This document shows positions 12,373 through 50,510 of a stretch of DNA of 64,000 nt, piece after piece. The first letter of the stretch is position 1, and each line of letters begins with the position of its first letter. Made by a program: the position numbers and the translations under genes. The stretch is from positions 8,095,984 to 8,159,983 of the forward strand of contig NC_092564.1 of NCBI RefSeq assembly GCF_037975245.1. Reading direction: 5' to 3'. The notes beneath the pieces were generated by a model. The model made no database searches, was not told where the DNA came from, and saw only the letters and a program-made list of their open reading frames with translations. Source of the DNA: Apostichopus japonicus (lineage: Eukaryota > Echinodermata > Holothuroidea > Aspidochirotida > Stichopodidae).

Positions 12373-12403
<31 letters not shown>

Positions 12404-15400: not shown

Positions 15401-18400
15401 TTTGTTTATACTTTATCGTACAGCTTCAAATTCTTCCAGGGAGGACAGAATTTCTACAAAAGATCTCTGATATTTTGTACTTGACAATCTCTTCCTTTAA
15501 GTTGATGTTTGTGAATTAGCATGAATTAAAGATATGACCATTTATGTTGATTGATTGCTTAGCTGGCTGTCATGTTAATCTACGAACTGAGAGTAAACTG
15601 TACACATCTCTTTTATTTCTCTCATATTTAATAATACAAAATTTAAAAAAATAAATTAAAAATAAATTAAACATCAGGCCTCAAAAAGTTAGGGCCAGAA
15701 ACCTCTTCTGATTTCTCTATAACTGCATCGATATAATAATTAGTGCCTTAGTAATCAATTAACATTTGCCATGAATCTCATTGTTTTCATTTTATAGATG
15801 AATGATCCTAATGAGGATGTGATTTCCAATCTCCTGTCTTTCTTGGCTGAAAGAGAAAAGAGAAGAAACATTTTAGATAGTGAAAGATTACGGAAAGGTA
15901 AGCCTGGAATCCTCACGATGAGTTAGTGTTGTATTTATCCATTGACTCCTGCTATGATTTAAAAGAATAGTCCAGGTCAAAATATCTTTTTCATATGTTA
16001 AAAAGGAACTTAATCTAAGCATTCTGGTGAAGTTTGCTCTCAATTCCTCTGTACAGTTTTTGAGATATTGACAGTTGAAGGTTTCTGATATTCTACCAAA
16101 AGTTAACTTGAAGCAATCAGGTGTGATGTCATTGTTGCACATTGACAAATAATGTTTTGTTTTTCTTTATTTTTCAGTCTATTGATTTGACCTTGGATTG
16201 GATAGGGTTACTAGTTTGTCTAAAGGGGATGTGAAGTTTATAAAATACCAATACCTATGGTACATTCACATTATGGATGCATCCAATTGTGGAGTACTAA
16301 ATTAGATTTAAATTTTAAAGGAAAACAAAACATTATTTATCAGTGTGCAACAATGACATCACACCTGTTTGCTCCAAGTTCACTTTTGGTACGAAAGGTG
16401 GCAACTTCAACTGTCAATATCTCAAAAACTGTGAATAGGAATAAATGCAAATTTCACCAGAATGCAGAGATTATGTTCCTCTTTAATATATCAAAAGGAA
16501 AATTTGACCTGGACTTTTCTTTTAAAAGAAAAATTAATGCAAAATTACTGACACCTTTAAAACTATTTCAGAGCTTGAAGAACAAAAAAGGAGCAAATTT
16601 GCAAAGAAATGTGAATAAGAAAGAAATTTTGTAAGGTGTGCTAGAAATTAGCTTTGATGTGGTGTCATCTGAGGGAAACTGTAGCCTCTAGTGGTTTACT
16701 CTTGACAGTGGTTGTAGATGTTAACCAGATTGAACATGAGCTGGTTAATTAAATAGCTGATGGATTCAAGTCATTCATGAATTCAACTTGCCGATGAATT
16801 AAAACAGCTCACGAATGAAACTTTGTTGTTGAATTGGAATGGTTGCTTTTCAGAGGAAGCGTTCAGATTGCGTCTTCAGGAATTCGAGAGAGAGACGGAG
16901 GCTGTGAGGGCTGCAAATCTTGATCTACAGAAAGAAGTGGATAGATATAAGAAGAAGGTCAGAATATTTGAAAATGAGAAAGAAAACATCAACAGAGGTC
17001 ACGACGAAGCTTTCAGAGGCCTTCAGAATGAGGTAAATTAATCAGGAAAATTTAGTGTCGCAAAAATTCAACACAAAACAAGAATGTTTAGTAGTTTTAT
17101 TACATATAACATTTGTTTATGTTCAACATCCCACCCCCCCCCCCCTCCAACCAGAGTAGACAGAAAGCACCACAAGTGCCTCACTTAGATCTATAACATA
17201 ATATTTAACAGCAAGGCTGGTACTATATGGGTTGTGAGTTTGGTCGAATGTGATAAAGGATGTTAAAGTAAACTGTAAGTCTTTGCAAATAATATATAAA
17301 CTCACACTGGGGGGGATTCAACTAATACTATAACTAGCTATTATATAACAACCCATTGCGTTGATTTGTGATCTTCACCACCACAGCTCGCTGAGAAAGA
17401 CAAGAAGCTCCAGAAAGAAATGCAGGAGAGGGACAAGCTACGTCTGGCTCTTAAAGGAGTTCAACAGAGTGAGAAGGAGAGATGGGAGAAGGAGATGGTA
17501 AGTTGAACAGAGTGAGGTGGGAGAAGGAGAGGTGGGAGAAGGAGAGGTGGGAGAAGGAGATGGTAAGTTGGAATAAGTGTAGGAGACAGTAACAGGTCAG
17601 AAATCTCGGTGGGTGAGATGATGAAGTCCTCAATTTTCAGCCAATGCTTCTTTGTGTACGTCTATGTATTGTTTCCTTCTAGGGAAATGTTCGTCTGTTT
17701 CAATACCACACGATCTCTTCCATTAACAACTAAAAACTTTGTTCTACCTTGTTCAATCTTGTTTCTAAATCTTTGTAAGTCTTTTACACTTTTGTTTTGA
17801 CAAGCCTGACAGCAACAAACGGAAGAAAGTACCTTGCTCCATTTAGGCGATATTAGTTTTGGAATGTATCAGAGGGGGATTCACAAATAGGAAGCTAGTT
17901 AGGTGTCATAACAATATTTCACGTCTTTATTGATCATTTTTGTTCTGTAGCATAAAGCTCCGAAAGAAATGGTGCAAGTAGGTGGTTATTAGCCTTGAGA
18001 TTTAAAGGAAATGGCAAGTTAGCAAAGAAACTCGGGTATGAAAATGAGATAGGGTTAGGGTGATTAGATGTTTCCTTTGAAAAATAACAGAATTCCTCTA
18101 TAGTTTAAGCATTTCTTGTAACAATCATGTAACAATGTATATTTTGATCACGTCCAATTTGATAGCAAGGAAGAAGCCACTGCAATCTAAGACCAGCTGC
18201 TGTACATAAGGGTGTGACACTGGTGTGATATAAGTCTATATAAGTGAAAAGTTTAATGTTCTTTTATTTTTTTAATGTTATGTTTATATGTGACATGGTA
18301 ATGTACACTGCCTGTACATTAGTCCTGTGCTATATGTGGTACGGTCTTTAGCAACATTTCCAGTTACTTGAATTAGCATAAGTATTACCTGGACTTTACT

Positions 18401-21399
18401 GAAGGTATATGTAATTCATTTTTTTTCCTTTTCCTTTATGGTATTTTTTTTTTCTTTTTATTTTAGGGTAAAAGGGTTAAGGCTAACAAAATGGAGTATG
18501 AGAACAAACTCTGGGTAAAGAATGCCCAGCTAGATCAACTAAAACAGATTGTATGCGGTTCTGGAAGTGGGGACGTCCTGCCAGCTGAGGAGGATCAAGT
18601 GATGCAGGAGGTAGAAGAACCTGCTGTCAGACCAAAGACAAAACCTACCCTCAACAGATCACAGTCTCCTCCGCCTAAACGGACAGCGCCCCCTGTCAAG
18701 GTCAGGCATCGCAGATCGAGGTCAACTTCAAACGCTGTCTGGGTGGACCATAAACCAGCATCTACCCTCAACACTGGTAAGAATTTATGGCACAAAACTT
18801 GATGGTTAGATAATAACAAGGTGTAGTCAAGAAAGCAAGTCACATGCCCTCTATTTGTTGATACTTGTACACTTGCACAAAACCAATTTGTCATAATTGT
18901 ACTTCACTTGTTGATGCTATCAATGAATTGTTAGTTTCATGTTTTATCACTGACAGGTTTGGTTAGTAAAGCATGTTACCTTCGAAAGAAGGACGTCTTG
19001 AACGGATGCGTAGATCATGAAGTTACCATTGTGTTAGCTTTTAGTGCTCATGGCATTTATTCCAACAGAAGTAGCAGATATAAAAATGTTCAAAAGTGCT
19101 CATGCTTTTCAGCAACAAAAAAATGGTTTTGATCGTCATGATTATTACAATTATTATTACAAAGATGGGAGAGAATTTGGAATCCCAAACTAGTCAGAAC
19201 CTTGGGCCCAGTAAGCAGTCTAAACATTGATGATAAGTTGGAAGGTACAAATTGATGGCATTTGTTTTCTTCGTCTCCGTCAGAAACGGTTCTCCAACCT
19301 GTCGGTCCGAAGAAGAAGAAGACCGTGAACACTCCATCAGTGAAGGATCTTAAGAATACAGATAACTACATGGTGACTCATCAGGAGGAGGACTCTAAAG
19401 GAGAGGTAGAAACCAGGATCTATAAGGTCAGTCCTACCTGCCTCTTAACTTAAACTCTCAGAGAACAGGTTGATAAAACAATCCTCCTTCTCCCTACACG
19501 AAGCAGGATTTACATCAGCTTCAGAATTCAAGCAGGAATACATTCTGCTTTTCATTGATAGAATTTTTTTTTTAAATGAAGTGAAGAAGTAAAGACATGT
19601 TCATTCCAGATATTATCCTATATTACTAAACTGCTAGATTTTGTTGAGCCAACCCAAATGTAGAAAAGAAAAAAAAAAGAGAAAGAAATGTTGCTACTTC
19701 CTAATGTTTTTCTCAAGAAAGATCTTCTCAGTAAAACTGAAGATACCAATGTTGTTTAAGTACATTTGCTTGGAATTTGGAAAAAATGCAGAAAAATTTC
19801 AAGTCAGTCAAAGTTTAGATCCTAAGGGAATCCTGCGTTATCATAACAAACATCTAATCTGTATTGATGAAGGATGAAAATACATCTTCATATAATTGCA
19901 TTTGCTTTCTCTATCACAAAAAAAAAGAAGATAAATAATTGTTCATCTAATAGCTTTGATTCTACCAAATCTGTTCAATTTTTCCCCCTTTTTTTTTGCT
20001 CTCAGGCTGATGTGCTCACCACCAGAGGCGGTGGTCGCTCAGTTCAGTTCACAGATGTAGAGCAGCTCAAGACCGGGTCACCAACAAACTCGCCCACCAA
20101 CAGGAAAAGAAAGTCAGATGAAGATGGAGAGGCTCGAAGCAAAGAGGAGGTTGAATCCAGGGTGAGCCTTACTTCCTTCAACCTGTAATCTAAGAGACTG
20201 TTGCTGTGCAAGGCAGCACCTTCTCGAAGTGAAAGCCAACCATTGCAAAAGCGACTGTTGAAATCTCACAACCTTAACCCAAGAGGATGCTATTTAGCTT
20301 GTGATTAGCCTTACTAATTATTAATGGTAGTAACAACTTCAACACTGATTCTTGTATTTAAAATATGTGGATTGATCTTTCTCCCGATACAACAGGATTG
20401 TCTCTGTTTTTTTGTTTTATCTTCCAAGACTACCAAAGGATTACTCGAAATAAGATTTGAATTGGTCAAACAAAGATTGTTGGGATTTGTTCACCAAATG
20501 ATAATAAAATGAGTAAATAATTAATTATTCCACTCTGCTCTCAACATTATTCGCTCAGGCGCAATTTTCATGTTAGTATACTCTGATTAATTTATTCCAA
20601 CAGTGCTCGTACGGGTATGCCAGCCGGGCAGGGCAATCGCAACCGTCAGTAAACCATACAGTGCCCAGCAAGTAAGTAAACCTTTACCTGCAAAATTTTC
20701 ATTACTCTTTGGATAAATCTCGTTGGACTAACACTTGCAAAAGAACAAATAAATTTCTGGTTAGAATGGATATTTAAACCAGTGATCTCTGTGTTACAAG
20801 TCCAGTTCTCTGTCCAGTACTCTAGTCCAGTTCTTTTCCAACTGAGCTATCCAATCCCTAGTTGGTGGTGGTCCCTATATAGCCATTTCTTTTGCTGGGC
20901 TTCTAAACCCACAGGTCACTGGTTTGAATCCCATTCTACCCATTTGATTTCTTTGTTCTTTTCCATTGTCTATAATTTCCCAGTTAGTTTCCCATAATTC
21001 ATTTACTTATATAATGGACGAATGTTTTTGTTGTTAATGTAGAGTTGTTGACAGCTTGTTTTTGAAATATATTTTGCATTGTTTATTTATTCAGTGATAG
21101 GTCGATTTTTGTAATTAATTAATTCATTTTTAAGCCTATTTTCATGTTCCATTTAAGACTTTCTCACCATTTGTGGTTTAAAGCTTTGCAATCACTGTTT
21201 CGCCACCAATTAGAATTGCTCATTTCTCGAAGGTAGCAATTTTTATTTTTTATATGGAACACATTTCTTAAAACCTCATTCAATTAGTCACTTAATAATG
21301 ATCTCTTTATCTTGTTTGTCAATTTCTTTTGACTTTTCAATTGTGCTTTTATTCTGACATGTTTTTTCTTCTTTGCTTTTCAGAAAATTTCGGAAGTAA
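655..21399 (+). CDS. KIF23: KIF23/MKLP1 kinesin-6 motor protein (complete, 22 constitutive coding exons)
   Basis: Plus-end-directed mitotic kinesin. In animals, KIF23 dimers bind the RhoGAP CYK4/MgcRacGAP to form centralspindlin, which bundles antiparallel midzone microtubules and drives cytokinesis. Exons: 655-665, 3229-3295, 3543-3635, 4067-4102, 4361-4466, 5284-5420, 6304-6422, 7081-7245, 11842-11954, 12534-12655, 13349-13531, 13810-13929, 14390-14486, 14869-14975, 15798-15897, 16854-17032, 17387-17497, 18467-18776, 19284-19426, 20006-20161, 20604-20671, 21384-21399. The sum is 2,559 nt with one open frame (852 aa), close to the 856-aa human short isoform. Visible: P-loop GITNSGKTH (111-119), switch I NTESSRSH (295-302), switch II DLAGSE (337-342), a coiled coil about 495-640, basic RHRRSRS (702-708), PKKKK, and a C-terminal [11 protein letters not shown] block. 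An in-frame TAA at 643-645 supports the start. The 104-residue extra block of the long human isoform is not seen. Identity is very sure; individual boundaries rest on GT-AG and frame. Confidence 0.96.
1288..1849. mobile_element. MITE-like element with 17-bp perfect terminal inverted repeats (intron 1)
   Basis: ACTAAAACGAATGACAG at 1288-1304 is the exact reverse complement of 1833-1849. Both ends carry extra GAATGACA copies just inside (1301-1314; 1741-1775 and 1812-1832 in reverse), so the element is a foldback with subterminal repeats. It has no transposase. I could not identify a clear target-site duplication. A different repeat end (CAGTGGCGTAGGG...) begins near 1629, which suggests a nested insertion. 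Confidence 0.6.
3229..3295 (+). CDS. KIF23: KIF23 coding exon 2 (basic N-terminal tail)
   Basis: Residues 4-26, [14 protein letters not shown] then NKTKDPVE, matching the basic N-terminus of KIF23. Acceptor aacaacag ends at 3228; donor gtaagt at 3296. Confidence 0.93.
3543..3635 (+). CDS. KIF23: KIF23 coding exon 3 (start of motor domain)
   Basis: Residues 27-57. VYSRVRPL is the first beta strand of the kinesin motor (human VYCRVRPL). Acceptor ends at 3542; donor gtgagt at 3636. Confidence 0.93.
4067..4102 (+). CDS. KIF23: KIF23 coding exon 4
   Basis: Residues 58-69, [12 protein letters not shown], aligning with the human RNGDYKE segment. It is a 36-nt exon with acceptor ttttacag and donor gtaagt. 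Confidence 0.9.
4361..4466 (+). CDS. KIF23: KIF23 coding exon 5
   Basis: Residues 70-104, [20 protein letters not shown] then [15 protein letters not shown]. This is the conserved F-x-x-VFG...Q...LF motor segment before the P-loop. Donor gtgaga at 4467. Confidence 0.95.
4780..5080. repeat. Tandem repeat, three copies of about 103 bp (KIF23 intron 5)
   Basis: Copies start at about 4780, 4882 and 4986 with AGATTTTACAAATAT and share the text through GTTCATGAGAATGC and TTGATCATGAA. Similarity is very high, so the expansion is recent. Confidence 0.9.
5284..5420 (+). CDS. KIF23: KIF23 coding exon 6 (P-loop)
   Basis: Residues 105-150. It holds the ATP-binding P-loop [10 protein letters not shown], then [20 protein letters not shown]. 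The residue before SGKT is Asn where most kinesins have Gly or Ser. Donor gtgagt at 5421. Confidence 0.96.
5540..5762 (+). mobile_element. LINE 3' end fragment (CR1/L2/Jockey-like) in intron 6
   Basis: From 5569 the frame reads [19 protein letters not shown] and then [10 protein letters not shown] about 15 residues later. This is the usual C-terminal end of CR1/L2-type LINE ORF2 proteins. It is followed at about 5742 by GGCGCTATATAAA, the usual 3' tail motif of such elements, and a poly(A)-like end. The rest of the element is absent (5'-truncated). Confidence 0.75.
6304..6422 (+). CDS. KIF23: KIF23 coding exon 7
   Basis: Residues 151-189, [20 protein letters not shown] then [19 protein letters not shown], matching the human segment ending LLERQKREAMP. 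Acceptor ends at 6303; donor gtaggt at 6423. Confidence 0.94.
7081..7245 (+). CDS. KIF23: KIF23 coding exon 8 ([15 protein letters not shown])
   Basis: Residues 190-244. It contains [19 protein letters not shown], the conserved strand before loop 6. It ends in phase 2 at donor gtaagt (7246), directly upstream of the cassette-exon cluster. Confidence 0.95.
8425..8460 (+). CDS. KIF23: Candidate KIF23 cassette microexon A (36 nt)
   Basis: A pyrimidine-rich acceptor ending ttattgtag (8424) and donor gtaaac (8461) bracket 36 open bases. Using the phase-2 carry from exon 8, it encodes [12 protein letters not shown] plus a split Gly codon, and it leaves the phase unchanged. It would lie in the motor loop between DLLEE and LREDSN. 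Whether it is spliced in is inference. Confidence 0.5.
8721..8765 (+). CDS. KIF23: Candidate KIF23 cassette microexon B (45 nt)
   Basis: This has the best splice signals of the three: a long pyrimidine tract ending cttttgacag (8720) and donor gtacgt (8766). In the exon 8 phase it reads [14 protein letters not shown] plus a split codon, with no stop and phase preserved. Polar and Asp/Asn-rich, as expected for a surface-loop insert. Confidence 0.55.
9783..9815 (+). CDS. KIF23: Candidate KIF23 cassette microexon C (33 nt)
   Basis: Acceptor tggatggtag (9782) and donor gtaaag (9816). In phase it reads [10 protein letters not shown] plus a split codon that joins to [12 protein letters not shown] of the next exon. 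It is 33 nt, so phase is preserved. The acceptor tract is weaker than that of exon B. Confidence 0.5.
10742..11117. repeat. Direct tandem duplication, two copies of about 190 bp
   Basis: The block beginning ATTGAACATCGCTGTT at 10747 recurs at 10937 and runs through CAGTCCACCTAAAGTTTTACG to TTACTGGTCTTAGAGTTT with few differences. It lies inside KIF23 intron 8. Confidence 0.92.
11842..11954 (+). CDS. KIF23: KIF23 coding exon 9
   Basis: Residues 245-282: [20 protein letters not shown] followed by [17 protein letters not shown], matching human LREDKNHNMYVAG. Acceptor ends at 11841; donor gtgagt at 11955. Confidence 0.95.
12377..12441. repeat. (AT)n microsatellite
   Basis: An AT dinucleotide tract with small interruptions, in KIF23 intron 9. 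Confidence 0.9.
12534..12655 (+). CDS. KIF23: KIF23 coding exon 10 (switch I)
   Basis: Residues 283-323. [13 protein letters not shown] is the nucleotide-sensing switch I of kinesins. It is followed by [16 protein letters not shown] as in vertebrate KIF23. Donor gtagga at 12656. Confidence 0.97.
13349..13531 (+). CDS. KIF23: KIF23 coding exon 11 (switch II)
   Basis: Residues 324-384. [19 protein letters not shown] holds switch II. It then reads [20 protein letters not shown], part of the tubulin-binding relay region. Donor gtagga at 13532. Confidence 0.97.
13810..13929 (+). CDS. KIF23: KIF23 coding exon 12
   Basis: Residues 385-424: [20 protein letters not shown] then [19 protein letters not shown], the conserved VPYRDSKLT tubulin-contact helix and last core strand. 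Donor gtaggt at 13930. Confidence 0.97.
14390..14486 (+). CDS. KIF23: KIF23 coding exon 13 (end of motor, neck start)
   Basis: Residues 425-456: [19 protein letters not shown], then [11 protein letters not shown]. This matches the human [15 protein letters not shown]...LTPGRR stretch where the motor core gives way to the neck that binds CYK4. Confidence 0.95.
14869..14975 (+). CDS. KIF23: KIF23 coding exon 14 (neck)
   Basis: Residues 457-492, a low-similarity neck segment containing [10 protein letters not shown] and FPALQ. Acceptor ends at 14868; donor gtgagc at 14976. Confidence 0.9.
15798..15897 (+). CDS. KIF23: KIF23 coding exon 15
   Basis: Residues 493-525, [20 protein letters not shown] then [13 protein letters not shown]. 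This corresponds to the human IDINDEQTLPRLIEALEKR start of the coiled-coil stalk. Donor gtaagc at 15898. Confidence 0.9.
15961..16524. mobile_element. Foldback/MITE-like inverted repeat (arms about 205 bp) in intron 15
   Basis: The left arm 15961-16165 reads in reverse complement like the right arm 16321-16524. Both share stretches such as CAACAATGACATCACACCTG and CAACTGTCAATATCTCAAAA. By eye the arms are about three-quarters to four-fifths identical, with a spacer of about 155 bp. It has no coding content and looks like an old foldback element or inverted pair of repeats. Confidence 0.8.
16854..17032 (+). CDS. KIF23: KIF23 coding exon 16 (coiled coil)
   Basis: Residues 526-585. A heptad-rich segment ([20 protein letters not shown] and onward) that forms the dimerising stalk of centralspindlin. 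Acceptor ends at 16853; donor gtaaat at 17033. Confidence 0.93.
17387..17497 (+). CDS. KIF23: KIF23 coding exon 17 (coiled coil)
   Basis: Residues 586-622, [20 protein letters not shown] and on to RWEKEM. Donor gtaagt at 17498. The exon end plus donor is duplicated just downstream (second gatggtaagt at about 17560). Confidence 0.92.
17481..17570. repeat. Short tandem repeat duplicating the exon 17 splice donor
   Basis: A unit of about 15 bp, GGTGGGAGAAGGAGA, is repeated. The last copy ends GATGGTAAGTTG exactly like the true exon 17 boundary, which creates a second consensus donor at 17563. Use of it would read GTA AGT TGA, a stop right after residue 624. Confidence 0.75.
18467..18776 (+). 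CDS. KIF23: KIF23 coding exon 18 (end of stalk, Aurora B/14-3-3 site)
   Basis: Residues 623-725. It ends the coiled coil with [20 protein letters not shown] (human MQNKLWVKDEKLKQLK). A Ser/Pro-rich linker follows, then [20 protein letters not shown]. Ser706 and Ser708 align with human short-isoform Ser708 (Aurora B site) and Ser710 (14-3-3 site), which control centralspindlin clustering. Donor gtaaga at 18777. Confidence 0.95.
19284..19426 (+). CDS. KIF23: KIF23 coding exon 19
   Basis: Residues 726-773. It includes [18 protein letters not shown] (likely nuclear localisation signal) and [20 protein letters not shown], matching human YMLTHQELASDGEIETKL. Donor gtcagt at 19427. Confidence 0.94.
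20006..20161 (+). CDS. KIF23: KIF23 coding exon 20
   Basis: Residues 774-825: [20 protein letters not shown] then a Ser/Pro stretch and [20 protein letters not shown]. The RGGG-SVQFTD block is the most conserved C-terminal element of KIF23 and lies in the region reported to bind ARF6. Donor gtgagc at 20162. Confidence 0.95.
20604..20671 (+). CDS. KIF23: KIF23 coding exon 21
   Basis: Residues 826-847, [20 protein letters not shown] then PS, and a split Lys codon. The sequence is weakly conserved; it is placed by acceptor attccaacag, donor gtaagt at 20672 and phase 2, which the last exon needs. Confidence 0.8.
20759..20945 (-). repeat. tRNA-derived SINE-like repeat, partly inverted (intron 21)
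   Basis: On the minus strand, 20849-20838 reads TAGCTCAGTTGG, a pol III A-box as in tRNAs, and a degenerate B-box-like GGTTTAAATATCC lies about 60 bases further on (20780-20768). The region 20914-20941 carries the same B-box-end text in the opposite orientation with an intact GGTTTGAATCCC, so two tRNA-like heads face each other. Confidence 0.55.
21384..21399 (+). CDS. KIF23: KIF23 last coding exon 22 and stop
   Basis: Acceptor gcttttcag then KKFRK and TAA (21397-21399). A short basic C-terminus parallels the human PKRKKP end. Confidence 0.85.
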
Positions 21400-25707: not shown

Positions 25708-25715
25708 TATATATA
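25708..25715 (+). promoter_or_regulatory. Candidate TATA box of the homeodomain-like gene
   Basis: TATATATA in the context gatcgggTATATATAcacacc, about 100 bases before the start codon. That leaves room for a transcription start near 25,740 and a 5' UTR of about 70 bases. Confidence 0.45.
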
Positions 25716-25811: not shown

Positions 25812-26034
25812 ATGGAATTACTTCATACTCCAACCGTTCAAGAGAAGGTTACCGTTGGAGCAGGACATTCATTCAACCTTCCTACACCTCCTCTTACATC
25901 CACGGAAGATCTATTTGTAAATTCTCCTGCGATAATTCACCAGACGATGGGCCTACCGGAAATTTGTTCGAAGGACAGTCCCGTGAGGAACCCCGCCGCT
26001 ATGATGGAACTCATCCTACAAGACTTAGGAGTTG
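25812..26034 (+). CDS. Homeodomain-like gene exon 1 (module copy 1)
   Basis: Residues 1-74, beginning MELLHTPTVQEKVTVG. The second half is module copy 1, GLPEICSKDSPVRNPAAMME and LILQDLGV. Donor gtaaat at 26035, phase 1. Confidence 0.8.
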
Positions 26035-28855
26035 GTAAATATTTCTCTCTTTTTTTTTCAAACGAGTCCTGCCCGACAACCTAAAGATATCTATGTCCCC
26101 ATCTTGGTTATCACTCTCAGGGGAGAAAGGGGGTGGGGGCAGAGGGGGTAGCGTTGCCGGATGGCGGGTAGTAGTAATAGGTATATGGACATAACACGCG
26201 CAAGTTCACCACTCTATTTGGGAAGGGATGGCATGTAACTAAATTTTCCGAAAGTGAAATCGTCGATACTCCCCATTTTTCGAGATAGACAGCCATATTT
26301 TGATTTTTCGTAAAACTTGTAAGTTTGTATAGGCGTTATTTGTATGTAAAAAGTGTAATACTTCCTTAGGATTTTTGACAAAGATCTAAGTGTTGCATAA
26401 AAATTGTGTTCCTAAGTTCAGTGGCGTTCAGCATATTCGTTAAGATCATTTTCATCGGCTAGTTTTATAATATGTAACCGAGAGATTGCTAATGAACGTT
26501 CTATAATATTGACGTCTTAATTTCAAGGATATTAGGGGAGTTTTCGAGTTGGCCCCAACTTTAGATAGCCTTTGCTAAAGTTTCTTATTCGTGTAGGTCC
26601 TGGTTCTTCAAATTTCCTTTTTTCGTACGAATCCTATAAACAAAAGTGACATTAATGGTTATCTGTCAACGTTGGGTCAGTGGAGCCGTTTAGTAATTAT
26701 GGAACAACTCCCTGGTGCACGCTACGTTTTTCGGTTCGAGCGTGGCCCATATTTGGCATATTCAAGTTGGCGCGATGCTGATAGCTTGTGACTTCCTGCT
26801 TGGGTGTGCGCTTGCGTTACATTTTGTATTGAAGTACATGTTATAATTAAGCTATAATAAAACTCGGCTTGGTGATACGAGAGTATTGTATAACAAGACT
26901 TTCCTATTCCTTTCATCTACAGAATCTGTCTCTCAGGCTTCCCTTTCTCCACTTGAAAAGACACCTGAACTACCAGAAGGGATACCAGAGATTTGCCTCA
27001 AGGGAAGTCCCGTCAAGGACCCAACCGAACTTATGGAGCTCATCCTAAAAGATTTGGGAATTGGTAAATAAGCTTTCCTTCTTACATCTGCCAGTTGAGT
27101 AGGGTGTTCATTTGTCAATTAGTTGCAAATTGTACGTTAATGTTTATAAATCGATTGAGTAGAGTCATATATCCCTATCGCAGGCGGCTATTCTGGTACA
27201 GGTGCCGAGTAGCCAGCCTTTGTGAGGTGGTCAGCCAACTTATTAGCCAGAGAATAAATGTTTATCTACGGTTATATTGATATGACTATTCATCACACCA
27301 TACCGTTTTACCCTCTTTTACGATTTGGAACTTGATATAACTTTAGATCATGCCAGTAAAACTTGACGTACGTGTTTGATAAGATGTAATCCATTTGGAA
27401 GAAACCTTGTATAGTTTAGGGGAGGAGGCAGACCTCCCCCCTCCTTCTGGCAAACAGACAACAGACAAACATATCGTTGCATAAAGTGTCAATCACTGAA
27501 TCAAATATTCTCGTATACTATGGATAAATAAAATATAAATAACCTATGCAGTATCATGCATATTAATGAGGTGAAATTAAAGTATAACGGGCAGAAAGGT
27601 AGATTTAACATTTCGAAATCTGTTGTGAATGAAATGTCGTATTTTAAAGTTTCTTCTTGTTAAAGTTGGGACATATACGGGGACAGTCTCCGAAAATCGC
27701 GGAAGTCTGGTCACTCTTAACGTAGTATACAGCTTGCAATTTTTTATATGTTTAGTTGAAACGTATAGGGTACGCTTATGCACTGTTTGGAGTCAAGTTA
27801 AGCATTTCTCCTCATATGTTCGGGGTCCATGCAATCCTATAACCAACACGACTGCTTCTTGTTTCTTTCAGAGATAACACCAGTTCAGAACTCACAAATT
27901 CTACCTACACCTGTTTCGAGTGGTCGGCTATCATCGCTGTCAGATTGTGACGTCACGGCTGTCTCATCAATCCCCTCTTCTGGAAGACTGACGGTTACTG
28001 CATCCACCCCTCCAAATGATCTCCAAGTGATTACCCCCTCTGATCCTAGAAGTCCGAGTCCAGCTGTTCGGCCTGCTTACAGGGACTGCAAACAATCTAC
28101 AGCAAAGAGGGTCCCTGGCCATAAACGAAGACGTTACACAGCGAGGGTTTCCAAGGCTCAACGAGTGATCTTGAAGGGGGCTTTCACGCGAGCGAGACAA
28201 CCGACTTATTCAGACATCGCAGAAATTTCGGCCGTATCTGGTCTGAATGGATATTCAATAATGGTAAGTTAGTTAAATCTATGGTTATAATCGTTCTATC
28301 ATGTCATTTGTTGATAAAATTGGCCCATAGCATTCTTGTTGAAAGCCTTAACGGAAAAAAAGGGGGGCCGGAGAAATTTAAGTGTACACTTAACTTGATT
28401 TAAGGAACAGCAATGGCTCATAAAAGACAAGCCCACATTCAAGGGGTACGCCAGATTCTCTAAGGGCGTGGTCCAATTTTCTTTATACATGTTTGGCAAA
28501 TCGTTTTGATTCATGCATGTGAAGCTAGCAAGCAAATGCGTATATCTTTTCCCAAAGAAAAACATTTCCCATGGATATTTGCGAGAACTAGTGTGGGTAA
28601 TTCGGGTGAAGCTAGTCGTTAACACCAGTTGCCTTTCAGAATATAATCTATAAAACGTTTGCGTTAACGAGACCGTTTCTTCCTTCTTTTGTTCTTATTC
28701 TTTCACTTGCTTTATTAATTCGTCTTTTTCTTTTTCGTCAGGAATGGTTTGCCAAGGAGACACTGCTCACTGGTATGAAGAAGAGGTTGTTTTCCGATGA
28801 CATCGCTCCACCCAAGCTGCTGAAGAGGTCAGGTGTCGCCTGTCGCACCACGTGA
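25812..28855 (+). CDS. Divergent homeodomain-like protein, 289 aa (four exons, complete)
   Basis: Exons 25812-26034, 26923-27063, 27872-28263 and 28742-28855 join in phases 1, 1 and 0 to one 870-nt frame. An in-frame TAA at 25797-25799 supports the start. Residues 47-74 and 94-121 are two copies of a module, G(L/I)PEIC-K-SPV--P...MELIL-DLG. A Ser/Thr/Pro-rich stretch covers about 125-195. A homeodomain-like region spans about 207-266: basic arm KRRRY, then Q12, L16, F20, P26, L40, I45, W48, F49. The intron falls between positions 46 and 47, a common site in homeobox genes. Position 50 is Ala, 51 is Lys (canonical Asn) and 53 is Thr (canonical Arg), so standard base recognition is unlikely. 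I recognise no named family. It could be a fast-evolving PRD-class relative that binds DNA differently or acts through protein contacts. Confidence 0.82.
26035..26922 (+). other. Intron 1 of the homeodomain-like gene
   Basis: 888 bases with a G-rich patch at about 26120-26150 and no other recognisable feature. Confidence 0.75.
26923..27063 (+). CDS. Homeodomain-like gene exon 2 (module copy 2)
   Basis: Residues 75-121. It ends with GIPEICLKGSPVKDPTELME and LILKDLGI, 18 of 28 residues identical to copy 1. Acceptor tcatctacag and donor gtaaat. Same phase (1-1) and same donor text as exon 1, as expected from exon duplication. Confidence 0.82.
27680..27719 (-). mobile_element. Terminal fragment of the GGTGACCAGAC hAT-like family
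   Basis: In reverse complement, 27719-27680 reads TAAGAGTGACCAGACTTCCG, then CGATTTTCGGAGACTGTCC. This is the same end as the full element at 59443-59986. It lies in intron 2 of the homeodomain-like gene; the other end was not found. Confidence 0.6.
27872..28263 (+). CDS. Homeodomain-like gene exon 3 (linker and most of the homeodomain)
   Basis: Residues 122-252. A Ser/Pro-rich linker, then VPGHKRRRYTARVSKAQRVI and a helix-loop-helix stretch ending GLNGYSIM. Donor gtaagt at 28264, phase 0, at homeodomain position 46/47. Confidence 0.85.
28742..28855 (+). CDS. Homeodomain-like gene exon 4 (rest of helix 3, stop)
   Basis: Residues 253-289, EWFAKETLLTGMKKRLFSDD and a short tail. W48-F49 of the recognition helix are followed by A-K-E-T in place of the usual Q-N-R-R. 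TGA at 28853-28855. ATTAAA poly(A) signal variants follow at 28897 and 28969. Confidence 0.82.
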   Translation, partial: EWFAKETLLTGMKKRLFSDDIAPPKLLKRSGVACRTT

Positions 28856-31578
28856 ATATTCCTCCGGACCAGAATATTATACTCGAGATATTTTGCATTA
28901 AATTGAACGAAATTATTCAGCTGTTTTTCATTGTCTTGCCAGTTTTGTAAATACAAAAAGTTAAAAGTATTAAATTTAAATCAGCTGTTTCTCTTTATTT
29001 GCCTTTTCGTCTGTCTGAGATCGGGTATCCCCCTCCCCTTTTCCCCAATTATTTGTAACCCCACGTAAAAGAAGTAACCTTAAAATATTATATTAGCACA
29101 ACTTTGTGGGTAGACCTCATATATATCCTGTCTGCCTCGAATCCGCTAGTTCATGTTTTTTTCCGGTGGCGACCCCAAAAGCCCCTATATTGCAGCTGAG
29201 TTAAACGACCCCAAGGCCTTACCACCCCCCCTCCCACCCCTGGATGGTTGTAACGTTATGCTGTTCTTCTGATACTTCAGTTTCGGCTGTAAAATGCAAG
29301 TTTTAATTACTGTAATAAATGAGTACACAACGCGGCAAAATTACCTACATGGTTTCTTCCCTTCCTCTCCCCTCGTAAATAATATTCTGCCTCTTCAGTA
29401 TAAAGGTACAATCATTTTGTTCCTTAACAGTAAAATTGAAGCTTTATTAAAGTATTGTGTTATACTGTTTTCTTTTTACGGCATACTCAATGTTCTGTGG
29501 GATCCTTGATAAATGTTCACTATTCCTACGTTGGCTGCATTAGTTGAGTCTAGAGATATCAGACTAGTCTTTGCTGAAAGAGGCGATATGTAAATGAGAA
29601 ATGGTACATTCTGCTGTCCACAAACGAATGTGAGGTAATGACAATTCAAACTGGTGGAAATTAAACTAATGTTGCAATATTAAGTAGTAGTACTTGTTTC
29701 TTCTCCCTTGAATGTGATTAACGCACATTTCGCTGTAATAGCTAAATAGGGTGATCGCCTTTGTGCATATAACATACATTTGCCTTTATTGTAGCCACAG
29801 TATAAATTGTTCTATGTGTTATTGCCACTGGTGGTATTTATGCTTGGTATTATTTCAATGATCCCCCGTTATATATGATACAGCTATATCCACATATATG
29901 GTTGATGTTTTGAAAATATTCTCTGCAGAGCCACGGATACGAAATCTGTCGCCATAGTTATAACTTAGGCCACCAGTTTTCAATCACTCTAATCTCATAA
30001 CCCCCCCCCCCCCCGCCTTGTCGTCAGGCAAATTGTAAGATTACGAACGACTTTATTGCTGATACCTGGTTAAGGCCAAAATTGATGTAAACACGCACTA
30101 ATTGCCACTAGAAAAAGTGGGATGTTTTGGGGATTCTTCCATAATTATTGTGATTCGGTTTGTAATTACAGAGAGTGATTTCGATTTAAATAGTTCCAAC
30201 ATGCTGGCTTGAGTGTACTTAATTGAAGTGACATTGGGAAAAGGAATTGAGTTTTCCGCTTTATTACACACCTATTGTTATCTTCCTAATTTCCTTCATC
30301 TTACTTGTTTTGTCTCTGGATGAAAAAATATTGATTGATGTAACCGAGTCGGGCCAATATTATAGCGCACAGCTTTGACGGCAAAATTTGGGTCAACTCT
30401 AAGAATTATAACGCGGGAATGAACAAATAACTCGTGTTACTTTTTTTAAGAAGAGCTATATATAGCCAACCAGATATCTCATGTGTTGGTCGAAGTATAA
30501 ACATCTCCCAACCAGCGCTTACAGCTCGCTACTTATTACAATATATGTTAGAAGGGCCGAACATGACTGTATGCAGCAACTCGTGATAAACGTTCATCGC
30601 GTTTTCTGCGGGAAGACCAAAATTTTTCGTAATTAGGAAGTCCTGGAAATGAGCGAGGCGCTGGGTTTGAATTTGTAATGTTTAGCAACAGAGGCAATCT
30701 CTCTATTTATTAAAGAGGCAATCTCTCACAGTGAAGTGTACTACTATGATTATGGTGGATAATCTGTTCGGCTATAAAATATAAAGAGTCTCGCTTGTTA
30801 AAGACAGGTAGGTGTCTCTTTGTGAAATATGACAAAACTCGGATATTTTAAATTTGTTTTGTATGTAATAGGCCTATATGCTAACATAAAGGGTTGACAT
30901 ATTCGATGCGTATTTGAGAGTTAGTACAGAACTAATATATGATGTAGGTTATGTTGAAGAGAAACAGGTATACACTCTATTGCCAATAATACGTCATGTT
31001 CAAATATTGGAAGTTCCGGAATATTATATTGGCTTATTAGGCTTATAAAGTGGGATTACTAAGAGATCCCTTCAATAGGCTAAAACACTGAGCTATATAT
31101 ACGTATTGTCTCTTGCGCAGGAATGCAATGCTTTCCACATCATCATAAGTGCTGAAAGAGAAATACCAATCGTCGATGTCTTGAGTGTGTGTGTTGGGGG
31201 TGGGGGTCAGCCTGGATGCCCAATCATCATAATTAGTTATAAAGCGCAATTAGGCTTTTGTATCTTACGTTTCTGATATGTGTACAACAGAGAACATGAC
31301 ATCCGTCATCAGTCTGCTTTTCATTGACAGCATATGAACAATAATGTTAACGTTGGAAAATATACGCATGAGGTAGGCGGGGGGGGGGGGGGTGGTAGAG
31401 GGTTAGATTGCCCAGGCTTCGGCACCCAATCAGTTGTCAGCACAGTGCATGATTCCTGTTTCCAGTTGACGTACTCGGATCTTTGCAAACTAGTGCGTTG
31501 TAATGCCACGTTGATCACGATACGAAATGAAGCACTTGAGCGACATTAACACGTTGAACTTCACCTGACGCCATTGAC

Positions 31579-31581
<3 letters not shown>

Positions 31582-31670
<89 letters not shown>

Positions 31671-31675
31671 ATATA
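31582..31675. repeat. (TA)n microsatellite, about 94 bp
   Basis: A nearly pure TA tract with one ATTTAT interruption. It accounts for the Ile/Tyr-only open frame on the minus strand. Confidence 0.97.
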
Positions 31676-33117
31676 AATAATAAATACACGCTTGCAATAG
31701 AGCGTTCCTGCGCATAATTTAAAGGTCTTCAGTACAATAGAACCAAATGTCAGCTTGCTAACAAAAATAGCTACAATGTTTCCCGTAGGTCCTAATATCT
31801 CTGAGTAACATTCAGGGTTATTCAAATAGACGATTTAGTATCTCAGTGTGGATATGCTACCTTTACAGTGGCAGTGAAATGCTTGTTGAAATTGGATCAT
31901 GGGTGACCTTAATCTGACTTGCTAGCATATTTATGGGCAATATTGATGAACTTTATCTCTGTTAGTCAATAGATATAAGCAATGATGTTATTATAATCGC
32001 CTTCATTATAATCTTCAGTATCTTTGCGAATGACACTTCAATTGGGCTCATTTTATTTTACAATTTCAAATCAGAGAACAAAATCGAAAAATTGTGTACC
32101 TAATGGTAAACCCATTGTATATTACCATGGGGAAGAATTTTCCAATTTAAATATAAGCCAGTAGCGTTGTTTCTCTTTTTATTATTCGTTCACACTATAT
32201 GAATACCAACCTGTACTACATTCCCTTTGTACAAACACTATGTATATTGTACGTAAATGTGTATAGGCTTATATGTAATAATATGTAAGTTCCTCAATTG
32301 ATCGATAATTGGCTCAGTTTTAGAGGCAACTATAATTAGCTTTCTTTCTTCAATCCACCATCAATCTTAACGTGACTTCTGAGACATTTATCACAATGGC
32401 GGTAGTTCTTCAATCATGATTCTCACATGAATTATTTAAAAGCTTAACTCCGGGGTGTACTTTACAATTTAACTGCAGAAGCGCCGAGAGCGAGCCATGC
32501 ATGCAGTTTCCATGGAAACATTCGTCTTGGTACATCTTCGTAGATGTTGAGAAATGGTTGGAAAGAAAATTATGGTATATTTATTTCAATAAACTCAAAG
32601 TAATGATCTAGTTAAGTCGATAACGAAAGACAATTGAGATATGAAACTCCACAGCTTACAATCAAAGCCAAACGTCATAGGAAGGGTGTATAGTACAATG
32701 CTTCAACAAAGACGAGGAGTCGGGCGCATCCGCGCGTAAAATGGATGGCTCTGCTCTCGATTGTTTAATTTGTATTTTGCAGACAAGCATGTAGTAATGA
32801 GATAGAAAGACGGACAACGTCGATTCTAGACCCCGAATAAACATTTATGACAAACATTCCTTGAATCCCAATTTTTGAGACGGTGCGCTCATAAAAATTT
32901 TAGTTAGAAGCAAAATTTTTCCATAAGATGATAATCGTCCTTCGAGTGAGACATTTGAATTTTCATAATTTGCTTCATATTTCCTTGAATTATTTTCTGT
33001 GGTATTCATCTTGATCTCTATATTTTAAAATTTACATAATTGATTGAGTACAATCAATGATTCTATATCTCATAGGTATCACCCCGAGTCCGACAATCTA
33101 AAGTGTGTGTGTGAAGA

Positions 33118-33158
33118 GGGGGGGGGATGGCGGGGAAGGGATAGGGACGGGGGGGGGG
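33118..33158 (+). repeat. G-rich tract with G-quadruplex potential
   Basis: Five or more G-runs of three or longer (a 9-G run, GGGG, GGG, GGG, about 10 G) separated by 2-4 base spacers lie on the + strand. This meets the usual G-quadruplex pattern. Confidence 0.7.
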
Positions 33159-34989
33159 CTGCTTCTTGTATCAGTGTACTCAAAAACGTTCCGAACTTCC
33201 GACAATCATATACGTTTGTAACAAGTCATTCCTCTCTATACTGAAACACTGGTTTATACAAGATGCAGTCTTGCAGTCTCGATTTCACAACAAATTTTCT
33301 AAGCTTTATAGGATTTATAAACGTCAAAATCTCACCATAACTAAACTGGAGTTGCAATCACCAATGCTTCAACGACTAGGAGTGAACGTACTGCGTCATC
33401 ATGGTTAACAACATTTTTTTATCGGTAGTTGTATACTGATAGTGCGCCATCTTTTTCTCGACGGCGCAAAGTCGCAAACCCTCTTGAGGCGATCGAACGT
33501 TTGTTTACTAACCGCCAAAGGATATATAGAAAACGCACACTCTACTCTTTGTACAATTGGAAGAACGTGATGTTTATCTCTTGACTAAATTAGTCGCATA
33601 TGTTATATGCAGCAGTGGCGTATCCAGGATGCCGGATGAGGGTGCGTAGGTGCTGGGGGACAGACAGTTAACGATCTATGACAAGGGGAGGGGTGTCCCC
33701 TTTTATATTACTTATCTTATACAAGAGCGTAACTACGTTTACTTCTATGGGGGGGGGGGGTATCCCCACGTAATGAATTCAGTGTGGGGTACGTAGGCCT
33801 CATTCACCCTCCCACTACTGGCAGGGACAAATGCCTAGTGTTAATTCTAAACATATAACATGTATATGCGGTAACTGAATCTAAACAGTCGAAATTATTC
33901 AACATTGATTCCAAAGTATAGCACTATATGAATACAAGAAAGTAAGGGGTCATCTCAGGATTCACTTCGTTATCTTAGTCAATTCCTAAAGCAAACCGTA
34001 AATGCATATTTGGATAATTTATTAGCAGCCACTTTGGAGAAGCCACCGTAAATGATTGAGATATACGTGTTGATTCACAAGAAAGAAGAATAGAGATTTA
34101 GAGTAAAGTTACGGAAGAAATATTGAAAACATAAAAGCAGACGGATATCTAAACATGCTGAGAAGTGTACAGGAATTTTTTAAATTTATCCACTGAGTAC
34201 TGCTCTCCTTATCAGTTGCCCGTTCCAAAAAAAAAAAAAACGTGGATTAATTAATACCTCACTCTCACTTTAATTTACACTGAAGCTGAATTTATCTTGA
34301 ACGAAACAGCGGAGTCAAATTTCATGAACAACTATAGAGACTTGGAATTCGGGCTCAGTTAGGCAAACTTTTGTTTACAAATAAACATCACCGAGTTGAT
34401 TACTTTTGTAAAATACGTAATTAAATAAGTTTCAAGGTCGGTTAAAGAAGGTCGGCGCGTGTCTAGCTAGGGTTAATTGGGGTTCGTCGTGATAACGTAT
34501 CTTAAGTTATCGTAGCAGAACAACATTGCGTGGTTAAGACCTAAATTTTAGGCTAGTCTCTATATGTCATCGAATGCATCATTTCACGGCTAAAATTGTA
34601 TCTCCCAAACCCGTTCACCATGCTTGTTCCACGTCTTCGGCATCTGACTGCAGTACACGTTTTCAGTCGTAAAATATTCCTCCCCTCCCCCCCCGCATTA
34701 AAAAATTCTTACGTGCCTTTGCACCAAAAGAAGAAGAACAAACACCATTCCCAGCCACTTCCCCCAACCATTCCTCTTGGCCATTTTCCTTTACAATTTT
34801 CCATCACGGTTCTCTCCAGCCCATGTTCCGACCCCTCTTTAAACCCCCACTCATCCTTCATTTCCCTGACTCCACAATTTTCATTCCAACACCCCTTCCC
34901 GGATGTACGATCTAACTGTTCTCAGACTGGTTGGAAGAAGCTTATGTGCTACATCCAGTAGCTCAAGGTCACTCAGCTATCTTCTGCTT

Positions 34990-35153
34990 ACATCCTAAGT
35001 ACTAGCTGTTGTCAGTCAAAACAGTTCGCGATCCAAGATCGGAGTTCGTTAAAAGGCATTCAGCTCAGCCACAACAGACATTGGACTGGTATAATATTCA
35101 TACAGAAGTTGCACTCAGAACGCAGCAGGCTTTTTCAACAAAGTACAAGCAAG
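34990..35153 (+). other. Possible untranslated first exon of a downstream gene
   Basis: GC content rises relative to the flanks and the stretch ends at a strong donor, AAG|gtaagc (35154). It has no ATG-initiated frame. It could be spliced to the acceptor at 51953, making it the 5' UTR exon of the gene that starts coding at 52021. This is inference from one splice-like site. Confidence 0.2.
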
Positions 35154-38100
35154 GTAAGCAATTTATTTGTTACTTTCGAATGAAACCATCTTTTATATAA
35201 TATTTGTAAGTAATATTAAGCAGCATTTATCCGGTACACGACAGTTAGCCAAGTGAAGTTACCTTGAATGGCGTGTAGGTAAATATTCTCTCGATGTATT
35301 CGTTACAGTGTGTGCTAAAGTTAGTCTTGGTACTTTTTTGTAATAAGTTCTAGCATCTACATAGCATTAATATTACAAACTGTTAGAATTTGGGAAGCTG
35401 TAAGAAATGTACAAACAAATGTAATGCTTCGCGTTGATTTGATATCTTTTCTGATTATTTCTTATACCTCTCCATAATGTGAACAGACTATAACGGTAGC
35501 AGGCCTAGCCTAGGATATAATCCTATTCACACTACGAGCGCCTTCATACAGGTTGTAGTCCTATTGTTCAATGGGGTATTGAATTTCTTCTAGGTTTTAA
35601 GCCCTTGAACACGCGTTATTGTCGGAGACTAGTGTTTGATGACTAGGACAATCAATGTTAGACCAGGAATAATAAATGAACAAAAGCTGGTGACAAGCAA
35701 AAACTCCAACACATTTATCTAAAAATAATAGTGGAAAGGGATTACTTCAGTGAATTTTAATTGTGTTTCTGTTTATTGGAATGACAAGCATAGCTAGGCA
35801 CAGCTGCCAAATTAGTTTTTTTTAGCCATATAGGCTAGGGCTTAGTGGTAGAAAAAGATAACGTTATGGGGTAAATGAGAATAAGATGTGTCTTAAGGAG
35901 GAAGAGGGCAATGGGTTGAAGATGGGGAGTATGACAATCTGTGATAGATAGGATTGTAGAGGTTCTGCATATTTTTGGCACACTCTTAGAAATAACTAGG
36001 CATTTTGCCAATTGTTAGACAGGAATTTGAAAGACTCCATTTTTCTTTTCATGCACAGTTCCATGTTAAACTGTTTTTCTTGAATCAGATTACATTGAAT
36101 AAACTGCCTCCTCAAGGAGGAAAATTACTGCATAGCATTGCAATAACACTTAAAAAGAAGGGAAAAAAGTTTTAAATTTGTTATAATGAATTGAACTGCC
36201 CAATCAATATTTAAGTGTTCTGCATTACTTAAAAAAAAACTTGCTAATTGTCAGGCCAGTTGTATTCATACCCACCACCAGGGGTTAGGAGCCAGGGGGA
36301 CACTGGGGCACATGCCCCCACTTTTTTCCAAATTAGCAGATGTGCCCTACTGGCAAATAAAATGTGCCCCTTTGATGAAGAACTGTCTTTTGAATATCTT
36401 AAGCTTTGTTAATTTTAATATTTTATTTTAATTATTTATTTTTTGTCTGTCCATGCTATGTTTAAAATGGCATCCCATATCTTTTTGTAGCACGGTTAAC
36501 AATTTACAATCTCAATAAATAGTATTGATAGCATACTAACACATCATATAGTGATATGGCCGGTGTGTATTGGTTTATGAAGACAGTGCCCCCCTGATGT
36601 TGTGCCCCCCCCCACATTTTGGAAGCTTCCCCCCTGCCCACCACTATAGTATCCTTACATGTAAGCCTTATATATACTGTACATGTTCTAGCTTGGCCAG
36701 ACCCCATGCACATACTTTCTGCATGTCATTACAAATAATGTAACAAATAACATTTTCAGAAGAGTAAAATCTAGTGTACAGATCAGATCTATAAAAAATA
36801 TTTTGTCAGTTTTTGTCAGTCAAGCAGTTTATAGTGCTGCAAGTCTATGGTACGGAAGCATCAGCTCGTGAATATAAATTAATATAAAACTTTGGTTTGA
36901 TTAAGCTGTTCTTAGCAAACCCAAAATGACAATTTCCAGTAAAATCCCTCCTTCCCCAAGATACAAAACACAGCCACTCGGCCTTCCCATATCCCACCCT
37001 CTGCCAATTAACCCACTGCCCACCCTCACCCCACCTTAGTGAATGTTTTTCATAATCACTGCATATTTCATATGACATGAAATTTCAAAGAGTTAAAGCA
37101 GTCTAAAGTTCAGCTCTCTTTTCTAAAATTTGCAATATGACTAGCCATTGAAAGGACCAGTTACAATTGATAATGCTCATGAATCAAAGTGAAACAGATG
37201 TCCAGACATGACCATATTATTTAAGTAGCTTGCAACACTGGGTAGATTATACCCAGCAGTGTATACAATACAGTTAGGTTATAATCTACAATACAAATCA
37301 CCTTTGTCCGGCCATCAATATTTACTTTTAGATCAGTTAGATATATATATATACCATGCATATACAGAGTTGATATTAAATGCCAGTGGTATGTTCAAGC
37401 TTAATACTAGTCACATATCAGTGCTCCTTGAGAGCAGCATTGTTTGGGCGAACTCAATTTGGGTGTTAATTTCACCGTTGACCAACAAAGAATTATTTAA
37501 AATAAATTTCAATTGATCTAGGCATGATATCCCTGTAGATTATTTTTCTCACCAACTTAACCTATTTTGCATTGACAAAGTGACAGTTACAGACTGTACA
37601 GGAACTACTCATTCCACTGGATGGGAAAATAAAAAAGAAAGAAAATGTCACCAAAGTGGCTTTTTCATGTCTAATAGGGACTGGTGACATATAACAAATT
37701 ACAGTATGGACATTTTTAAACATGAGGGACTTTCTTCATTATCCTGAATGAAAATTAGACAATTGTTAAGGCACTGCAAAGCATTGCTATGGGATTCTAA
37801 AATGAAAAAAGTAGAAACGTTGTTTATTTAAATTCCAAATTCAATGTAAAATCTGCTTTAAGTTGAAAGTAAATTTACTTCATTCCCCCTCTTCCCCGAA
37901 TCAAATCATCCACTTTCCTATCTTTCTTTGTACTATACAGTAATTCAGTAAAGGATTCCGCACAATTACGTACTGTATCTTACTGCGTCACAACTGACTA
38001 ACCTCTAGGTTATGTACTACCCACTCTTCTGCCAATTTGAAGTAAAAGACCTGTATGTGTGTGTCAAAATATTCAGTAGTGTTTAAAAATGCTGAAATTC

Positions 38101-49152: not shown

Positions 49153-50319
49153 AGCTCCTCACTGCTCTAAACTCAAAGCTGAGAATTTAATTCATCCCAG
49201 GAGATAGCCACACCCACCCTTTCACTGGCTAAGGACACCACTCAGCCATCCTATTGGCTAATAAGTTCAGTGCTAAGGGGTTGTGCCACTTACCAGACAG
49301 TTAGCTTAGAAGTCTTCTATATAATTCAGCATATAATCACATCAACACAATTAAAAGATCAACTCTCAGAGGAATTCCTAACTGAACACAACAATTCCTA
49401 ACGAAAGACAAGATAATTCCTGGGGCTTTCTACAGTAGTTCAATGTGACAAAGAACTTCAATGCTATATACTGCAGGAAATTTGCATTGCAATACCATTA
49501 GTCCAAGGGATCTCCAGAATCATCAGATAAATTGCTCAGTGTATCTTTAGTGAAGCCATTCGTTGTAGATAATATAGGAGATATATTCTTACGCCCAGAC
49601 ATTTGAAACCTGTTGATTTGCAGATTGTCCAGCTGCTCGGGATTTGTACAAAATTATAGCGGATATGCCTTGTAAGTTTGCAATGTACATTTCTCTTGAT
49701 GAGCGATATCTCTCTTACTCTCCGCCCCCCCCCACCCCCGTATCCCTCCTGCACCACTGTTGTTGTAGTAGTATTCTAGCCACCAAAGCTCATCATGTGC
49801 TACTTTCCCCACAGCCTATTTACCTGAGCTGTTTGATTTCTTTATATTATATGATAATATATATAACCAGCATGAAACAAAACAGACTACATGCAGTGCC
49901 TACATGTTTTAACTGCATTGAATTCATAGTCATGGTATATATTGACGCTCAGCTTCCCTCTCTCTCCATATGTAGTGGTATGAGAGAGAAGAGTTTGTTC
50001 ATTGTTAATAAAATTGTTATTCTGTTCATCGTCTCAAGGACGTGATCATTATTCTTCAGTTCTTCATCAAAGGGAAGCATATTTTTTCCCCATTTTAATG
50101 TCCCTGATGTTTTTCAGGAGAAACTGATCGCAGGAGAATTAATTGTTTTCAGCAGTTTCCGGTAAACTAGCAAGTCTTGCAGAGATAATTAGCTTGTGAA
50201 CAGTTACTGTGCATCTTACAGTTACGCTTTATTAAATTTTATGTAGCTTAGATTGACTGCAGTTATCGTTTCTCATTGAAATTTTATTGTACACACTTTA
50301 CCATATATGTAGCAGTTAC

Positions 50320-50510
50320 TGCGTGTGTAGCACTTATGGTGCTGGAAGCAGTTATGGTGTATGTATCAGTTATGGTGTTTGTTGCAGTTATGGTGTTTGT
50401 AGCAGTTATGGTGTATTAGCAGTTATGGTGTTGGAAGCAGTTATAATGGTGTACATAGCAGTTATGGTGTATGTAACAGTTATGGTGTATGTAACAGTTA
50501 TAGTAGCAGC
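50320..50510. repeat. 18-bp minisatellite
   Basis: Units of GTAGCAGTTATGGTGTAT with variants (GTAACAG, GGAAGCAG). The length is a multiple of three, so a repetitive open frame (CSSYGV) results; I do not consider it a gene. Confidence 0.92.

Follow-up and report, generated by a model that had tools for sequence, protein, structure and literature searches.

A four-exon holothurian gene with a predicted homeodomain-related region, replaced DNA-contact residues and a duplicated N-terminal module

Few published homeodomains do without DNA binding, and HOPX is the usual example. Passages of PMC9179269 describe HOPX as having the homeodomain fold without binding DNA, and as binding SRF and recruiting HDAC2; its placement is method-dependent, either in the PRD class or near Zhx/Homez, and the intron between homeodomain (HD) positions 46 and 47 is one of three deciding reasons in an excerpt of PMC2211742. 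ZHX proteins are described as NF-Y co-repressors in sections of PMC2893186, which also report the second homeodomain of ZHX2 crystallized as a domain-swapped dimer with its usual DNA site disrupted, and invoke Trp25, Arg53, and a basic N-terminal region to argue for DNA binding by the fourth homeodomain of ZHX1. Zhx has been called vertebrate-specific by reviewers (an extract of PMC4901127), and an oyster homeobox survey includes a Homez (part of PMC5322547). Here, we describe a gene in a window of 64,000 nt of the Apostichopus japonicus genome (NC_092564.1, 8,095,984-8,159,983; coordinates below are positions in this window) that has residues in homeodomain register and the common 46/47 intron, has changed DNA-contact residues, and carries a duplicated, constrained N-terminal module. 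A homeodomain without DNA contacts is already a known kind, given HOPX and the Asp51 of ZHX3 and Homez, so the locus is less surprising than a first-pass annotation of this DNA had held.

Four forward-strand exons join into 870 nt encoding 289 amino acids (aa) without an internal stop, which bears out the first-pass claim that all four are open and in phase. Exon 1 (25812-26034), with its ATG in the context ACGGAAATGG and a phase 1 donor GTAAATAT, encodes residues 1-74, ends one base into codon 75, and carries the first module copy, while exon 2 (26923-27063; acceptor TCCTTTCATCTACAG, donor GTAAATAA) is phase 1-1 symmetric and encodes residues 75-121, codon 75 being split with exon 1, with the second copy. 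Exon 3 (27872-28263; acceptor TCTTGTTTCTTTCAG, with ATAATG at the exon end running into the donor GTAAGTTAG) encodes residues 122-252, comprising a Ser/Thr/Pro-rich linker, a basic arm, and HD positions 1-46, and exon 4 (28742-28855; acceptor TTTCTTTTTCGTCAG) encodes residues 253-289 and the stop, that is, the remainder of the recognition helix and a tail. HD positions 1-46 occupy 28126-28263 (+) and cover the arm, helices 1 and 2, and the start of helix 3, as placed by a match to the Pfam model PF00046 and by numbering anchored on W48. Every intron of the homeodomain-like gene is GT-AG, the phases are 1, 1, and 0, and GC content is 0.47-0.54 in the exons, 0.37-0.40 in the introns, and 0.365 over the whole window. 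With open exons and canonical splice sites, the model looks intact, in agreement with the earlier judgment that it is not pseudogene-like.

V8, L16, F20, P26, I34, L40, I45, W48, F49, A50, K51, E52, and T53 fall in HD register, and the homeodomain-typical L16, F20, L40, W48, and F49 are all present; the register that had been proposed from L16, F20, L40, I45, W48, and F49 holds across the exon 3-4 join. The sole Pfam-A match up to E 10, in a search whose filters discard most matches above E ∼0.1, is PF00046 over profile positions 5-48 of 57 (E 0.0047 and 17.2 bits for the full protein; E 5.4e-4 and 20.2 bits for the 90-aa C-terminal part). The profile search suggested as a check at first pass does return a homeodomain, though below the curated cut-off, and just as no described family had been recognized, Pfam offers nothing more specific than the general homeodomain. 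Every one of the 17 sequences matched in the PDB up to E 10 belongs to a homeodomain protein, ZHX3 being the best (E 0.0035), followed by engrailed (0.0085), aristaless (0.11), Homez (0.13), and others. Scored against a profile of 19 homeodomains, the query reaches 21.8 bits, a score attained by 0/20,000 shuffles (best of the 18,275 reported, 11.0), and with a second profile, built from 60 of the 93 homeodomains listed for its own genome, it reaches 19.5 bits, again with 0/20,000 (best of the 16,658 reported, 12.5). The homeodomain match exceeds chance because no shuffle reaches the score in either test, and, judged by sequence, exons 3 and 4 encode a homeodomain-related region. The 93 matches of the homeodomain model at E 0.001 over the genome do not include the studied locus.

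The recognition-helix residues contributed by exon 4 are E47 W48 F49 A50 K51 E52 T53 L54 L55 T56 G57, and A50, K51, and T53, singled out at first pass, do stand at recognition positions in the spliced homeodomain. The loss of DNA-recognition residues is wider than was stated then: R5, Y25, R31, V/I47, K55, and K57 are also replaced. The basic N-terminal arm claimed at the same time is present as KRRR, with R5 replaced by Thr. We compared the query, at 12 contact positions, with those 29 of the 60 own-genome homeodomains that are complete (57 residues). At 10 of these (5, 25, 44, 47, 50, 51, 53, 54, 55, and 57), the query residue occurs in 0/29, and at the others R3 is still seen in 18 and I31 in 5. 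Asn51, which is Lys in the query, is found in 29/29 and in 40/40 rows that extend to position 51 (the remaining 20 of the 60 stop short of it), in a census biased by a profile that rewards Asn51; its absence alone does not exclude membership, as ZHX3 and Homez are also without it. The net charge of helix 3 (HD 42-58) is −1 in the query versus +3 to +6 in every one of the 29, and that of HD 2-58 is +5, inside their range of +4 to +13.

At 9 of the 12 core positions tabulated, the query residue is found among the 29 homeodomains. The query K17-E52 reverses an E17-R52 pair present in 20/29, a K-E pair being found in none; this is compatible with a maintained fold, and a single reversal may be chance. 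AlphaFold2 was run on the contiguous exon-3 piece only (63 aa, without an alignment), helix 3 spanning the splice junction and lying outside the fragment. The model has helices at fragment residues 27-38 and 45-54, equivalent to HD 10-21 and 28-37, which are the usual places of homeodomain helices 1 and 2. Of the three helices whose prediction the first-pass annotation had offered as a check, the first two are placed as expected in this low-confidence single-exon model; we infer that the three-helix fold is probably kept.

Exon 4 starts precisely at HD47, so that a phase 0 intron separates HD46 from HD47. The same phase 0 donor is common to 20/20 same-genome homeobox exons, selected from the 93 listed for matches ending at profile position 46, and the intron had rightly been called the common one. 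Only 1 of the 551 pyrimidine-rich acceptors on both window strands leads in phase 0 into xWF, and it is the exon 4 acceptor. When every AG acceptor in 28264-40000 is read in phase 0, 25 lead to an aromatic pair no more than five residues on; WF arises at 28741 alone, and WFxN at none of them. Three WFxN strings occur in a six-frame translation of the window, none with homeodomain-like flanks. An alternative exon 3-4 junction restoring Asn51, which the first-pass annotation had named as the finding that would overturn its reading, was thus not found in 28264-40000, and that reading survives.

The N-terminal module is present at 25950-26033 (+; residues 47-74, in exon 1) and at 26979-27062 (+; residues 94-121, in exon 2). 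The copies are 64% identical over 28 residues, with the common pattern PEICxKxSPVxxPxxxMELILxDLG, and the Nei-Gojobori method gives dN 0.22 and dS 1.21, a ratio of 0.18, with pN/pS ≥ 1 in 0.15% of 2000 codon bootstraps. As exon 2 is phase 1-1, duplication at the exon level is the simple explanation of this likeness. Within the exon-2 copy, a helix is predicted at residues 108-119 (33-44 of a 46-aa fragment folded without an alignment), with pLDDT 90-91 in the helix block, a fragment mean of 75.1, and pTM 0.33. A possible likeness of the module to the CREB kinase-inducible domain lacks database support and serves as a lead only. No further module copies were reported in the whole-genome search with the full protein, and no tandem paralogues were found in the window apart from the internal module.

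That search covered 671,581,487 bases in 35 contigs, with only the best candidates scored. It reported no second gene copy up to E 10, and the sole match other than the locus itself was the first homeodomain of a ZFHX gene (ZFHX HD1; E 1.1 with the full protein, 0.41 with the 90-aa part), which matches human ATBF1 at 1.9e-24. This gene, with its four homeodomains, lies at C3:27.874-27.877 Mb (L102). All four align with the query in register (35.0, 29.3, 24.6, and 23.1 bits), and HD1 is 39% identical to it in the 90-aa search, 37% over 59 residues, and 32% over a longer stretch, with K17, I31, and S35 in common. Unlike the query, ZFHX has its homeodomains in one 3340-residue open frame without the 46/47 intron and keeps Asn51. 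In a tree of 58 rows and 45 columns (57 own-genome homeodomains of ≥45 residues, trimmed to 45, plus the query; three shorter rows were dropped), the neighbor of the query is ZFHX HD1 with support 100/77, and the smallest starred set has 97/87; the end branch of the query, at 6.12, is the longest in the tree, a placement that the tree tool itself treats as unsure. The top identity to the query in the trimmed alignment belongs to a PRD-like row, L068 (31%), rather than to ZFHX HD1, and in the untrimmed alignment ZFHX HD1 is first (32%) and L068 second (30%). The query has the 46/47 phase 0 intron and P26 in common with the PRD class, whereas the 45-column tree, with its very long query branch, groups it elsewhere; the intron is not PRD-diagnostic, since at least 5 of the 20 exons (L094-L098) look non-PRD-like by eye, and exons with a LIM- or ANTP-like look have it too. 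ZFHX HD1 is thus, weakly, the nearest homeodomain, and although the intron would fit a PRD-like ancestry, as it would other classes that have it, the sequence leans toward ZF.

The explanation that we favor, with confidence a little short of even, is a homeobox gene, functional and highly divergent, in which the fold is kept and the DNA-reading face replaced, its product being most likely a nuclear transcriptional cofactor. The homeodomain would then serve as a protein-binding surface, by analogy with HOPX and the ZHX homeodomain dimer, and the duplicated N-terminal helix might dock a coregulator, in one copy or two; nuclear location, cofactor role, and partner identity are what we infer for such a protein, which would lack sequence-specific DNA binding. 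Lineage specificity, dimerization, and competition with true homeodomain proteins, all suggested at first pass, are conjectures for this gene. Action by protein contact appears most likely for a protein that combines a basic arm with a helix 3 that is not basic and a helical module under constraint. Several observations weigh on the other side. Both PF00046 scores are below the curated cut-off of 22.9 bits, the model of HD 1-46 is of low confidence (mean pLDDT 58.6, pTM 0.21), and V8, S38, and E52 occur in 0/29 homeodomains at their core positions. For the three predicted helices, hydrophobic moments are not above those of shuffles (P 0.63, 0.66, and 0.51), so the moments neither support nor exclude the fold. 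The module has no Pfam family match, its one PDB match is a repetitive leucine-rich protein (E 0.23), and its dN/dS comes from 28 codons in two internal copies with dS ∼1.2 and is silent on the homeodomain. The low Pfam score and the unremarkable moments would also suit some other helix-turn-helix domain or a chance resemblance, which we regard as highly improbable in view of the shuffle tests, relatives that are all homeodomains, the 46/47 intron, and the helix positions in the low-confidence model.

DNA might still be bound in another mode, with KRRR of the arm lying in the minor groove and the backbone contacted by K51 and by KKR (59-61), perhaps in a partner-dependent manner. The arm is kept, the charge of HD 2-58 is within the own-genome range, and the ZHX1 HD4 case in the cited part of PMC2893186 is a precedent; E47, A50, L54, L55, G57, and the net negative helix 3 speak against this mode, and the Trp25 and Arg53 of the precedent are Gln and Thr in the query, which leaves it, in our estimate, unlikely. 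We find it rather unlikely that this is a homeobox gene evolving fast under relaxed constraint and heading to loss, with a helix 3 that changed since it was no longer important. The query branch is the tree's longest, and rapid divergence has precedents in novel oyster homeobox genes (in passages of PMC5322547) and in LEUTX, but the exons are open with canonical splice sites and richer in GC than the introns, and the N-terminal module is constrained. The exon 3-4 junction is predicted from the DNA sequence, and the main transcript might instead end in a different exon, one overlooked or lying past 40000, that gives a normal WFxN helix; as no acceptor up to 40000 yields WFxN, the three six-frame strings are without suitable flanks, and the xWF opening of exon 4 at HD47 is unique among the good acceptors, we rate this as very unlikely.

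Around the gene, a TATA-like element at 25708-25714 (+), ∼100 bases upstream of the ATG, is a possible promoter, and ATTAAA at 28897-28902 (+), 42 bases past the stop, a possible poly(A) signal, each by pattern match only. The upstream neighbor is a KIF23/MKLP1 gene (7040-20185, +), a useful synteny anchor. Two of its kinesin motor exons, 13292-13579 and 13774-13950, score above the cut-off and one, 7040-7246, below it (24.6 versus 29.3 bits), and the two ends of the Arf6-binding domain of MKLP1 are matched at 18467-18799 and 19871-20185. Five of 10 open frames chosen in 7-52 kb match kinesin or MKLP1 models and the others nothing above the cut-off, while 10 chosen in 31-62 kb have no Pfam match at E 0.01. 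A 160-residue open frame at 50257-50739 (+) lies on an 18-base tandem repeat and appears to be a repeat artefact, not a gene. The window has no tRNA (ARAGORN) and no Rfam family at gathering score. Elsewhere in the genome, five homeobox-exon matches lie on one strand over 1.1 Mb at C22:23.75-24.85 Mb (L014, L015, and L016); they cover profile positions of about 14-52 and end in WFQNRR. In the three compared, stretches of DNA are 75-92% identical and the peptides almost the same, which makes this a dispersed array of a single homeobox exon. Two protein-identical homeodomains, at C5:19458880-19459050 (+) and C5:19508404-19508574 (−), are ∼49 kb apart and may be a recent inverted duplication.

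No paper on a gene of this kind was among the results listed by searches of the open-licence literature. The features tested (insertion, domains, Asn51, and family models) rule out HOPX, ZHX/HOMEZ, ZFHX, and COMPASS-like identities. ZFHX proteins combine multiple homeodomains with zinc fingers and Asn51, unlike the query. The COMPASS-like CMPl of sea urchins is likewise an ambulacrarian atypical homeodomain protein (from part of PMC3784565), but neither its Compass domain nor its 11-residue insertion is found in the query by Pfam or HD numbering. ZHX3, the best PDB match, and Homez resemble the query in that Asp replaces Asn51 in the PDB alignments, whereas the query has one homeodomain and no zinc finger found by Pfam up to E 10. 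A Homez-type identity is rejected, the Homez model PF11569 having no match at the locus; over the genome it gives 14 weak matches, the best at E 0.297, covering profile positions 3-21 only. HOPX resembles the query in a kept fold, lost DNA contacts, and the 46/47 intron, and acts via protein partners (sections of PMC2211742 and PMC9179269). Mouse Hopx is 73 aa long (an extract of PMC4901127), whereas the query has 289 aa and a duplicated N-terminal module, and the one-residue insertion of HOPX between helices I and II, given in the same sections of PMC2211742 and PMC9179269, is absent from the query, which has standard spacing. It is conceivable, if doubtful, that the gene founds a new homeodomain family of echinoderms (or of holothurians) with a net-acidic, protein-binding recognition helix, a core kept with a reversed 17-52 pair, and a tandem coregulator-docking helix; evolution would then have uncoupled the homeodomain fold from DNA recognition independently of HOPX. 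Overlooked by the homeodomain model at E 0.001 in its own genome, this candidate regulator would stand beside HOPX as another case on which the re-use of a DNA-binding fold for protein contacts can be tested, one in which the gene looks intact, the contacts have changed more fully, and a helix is duplicated.

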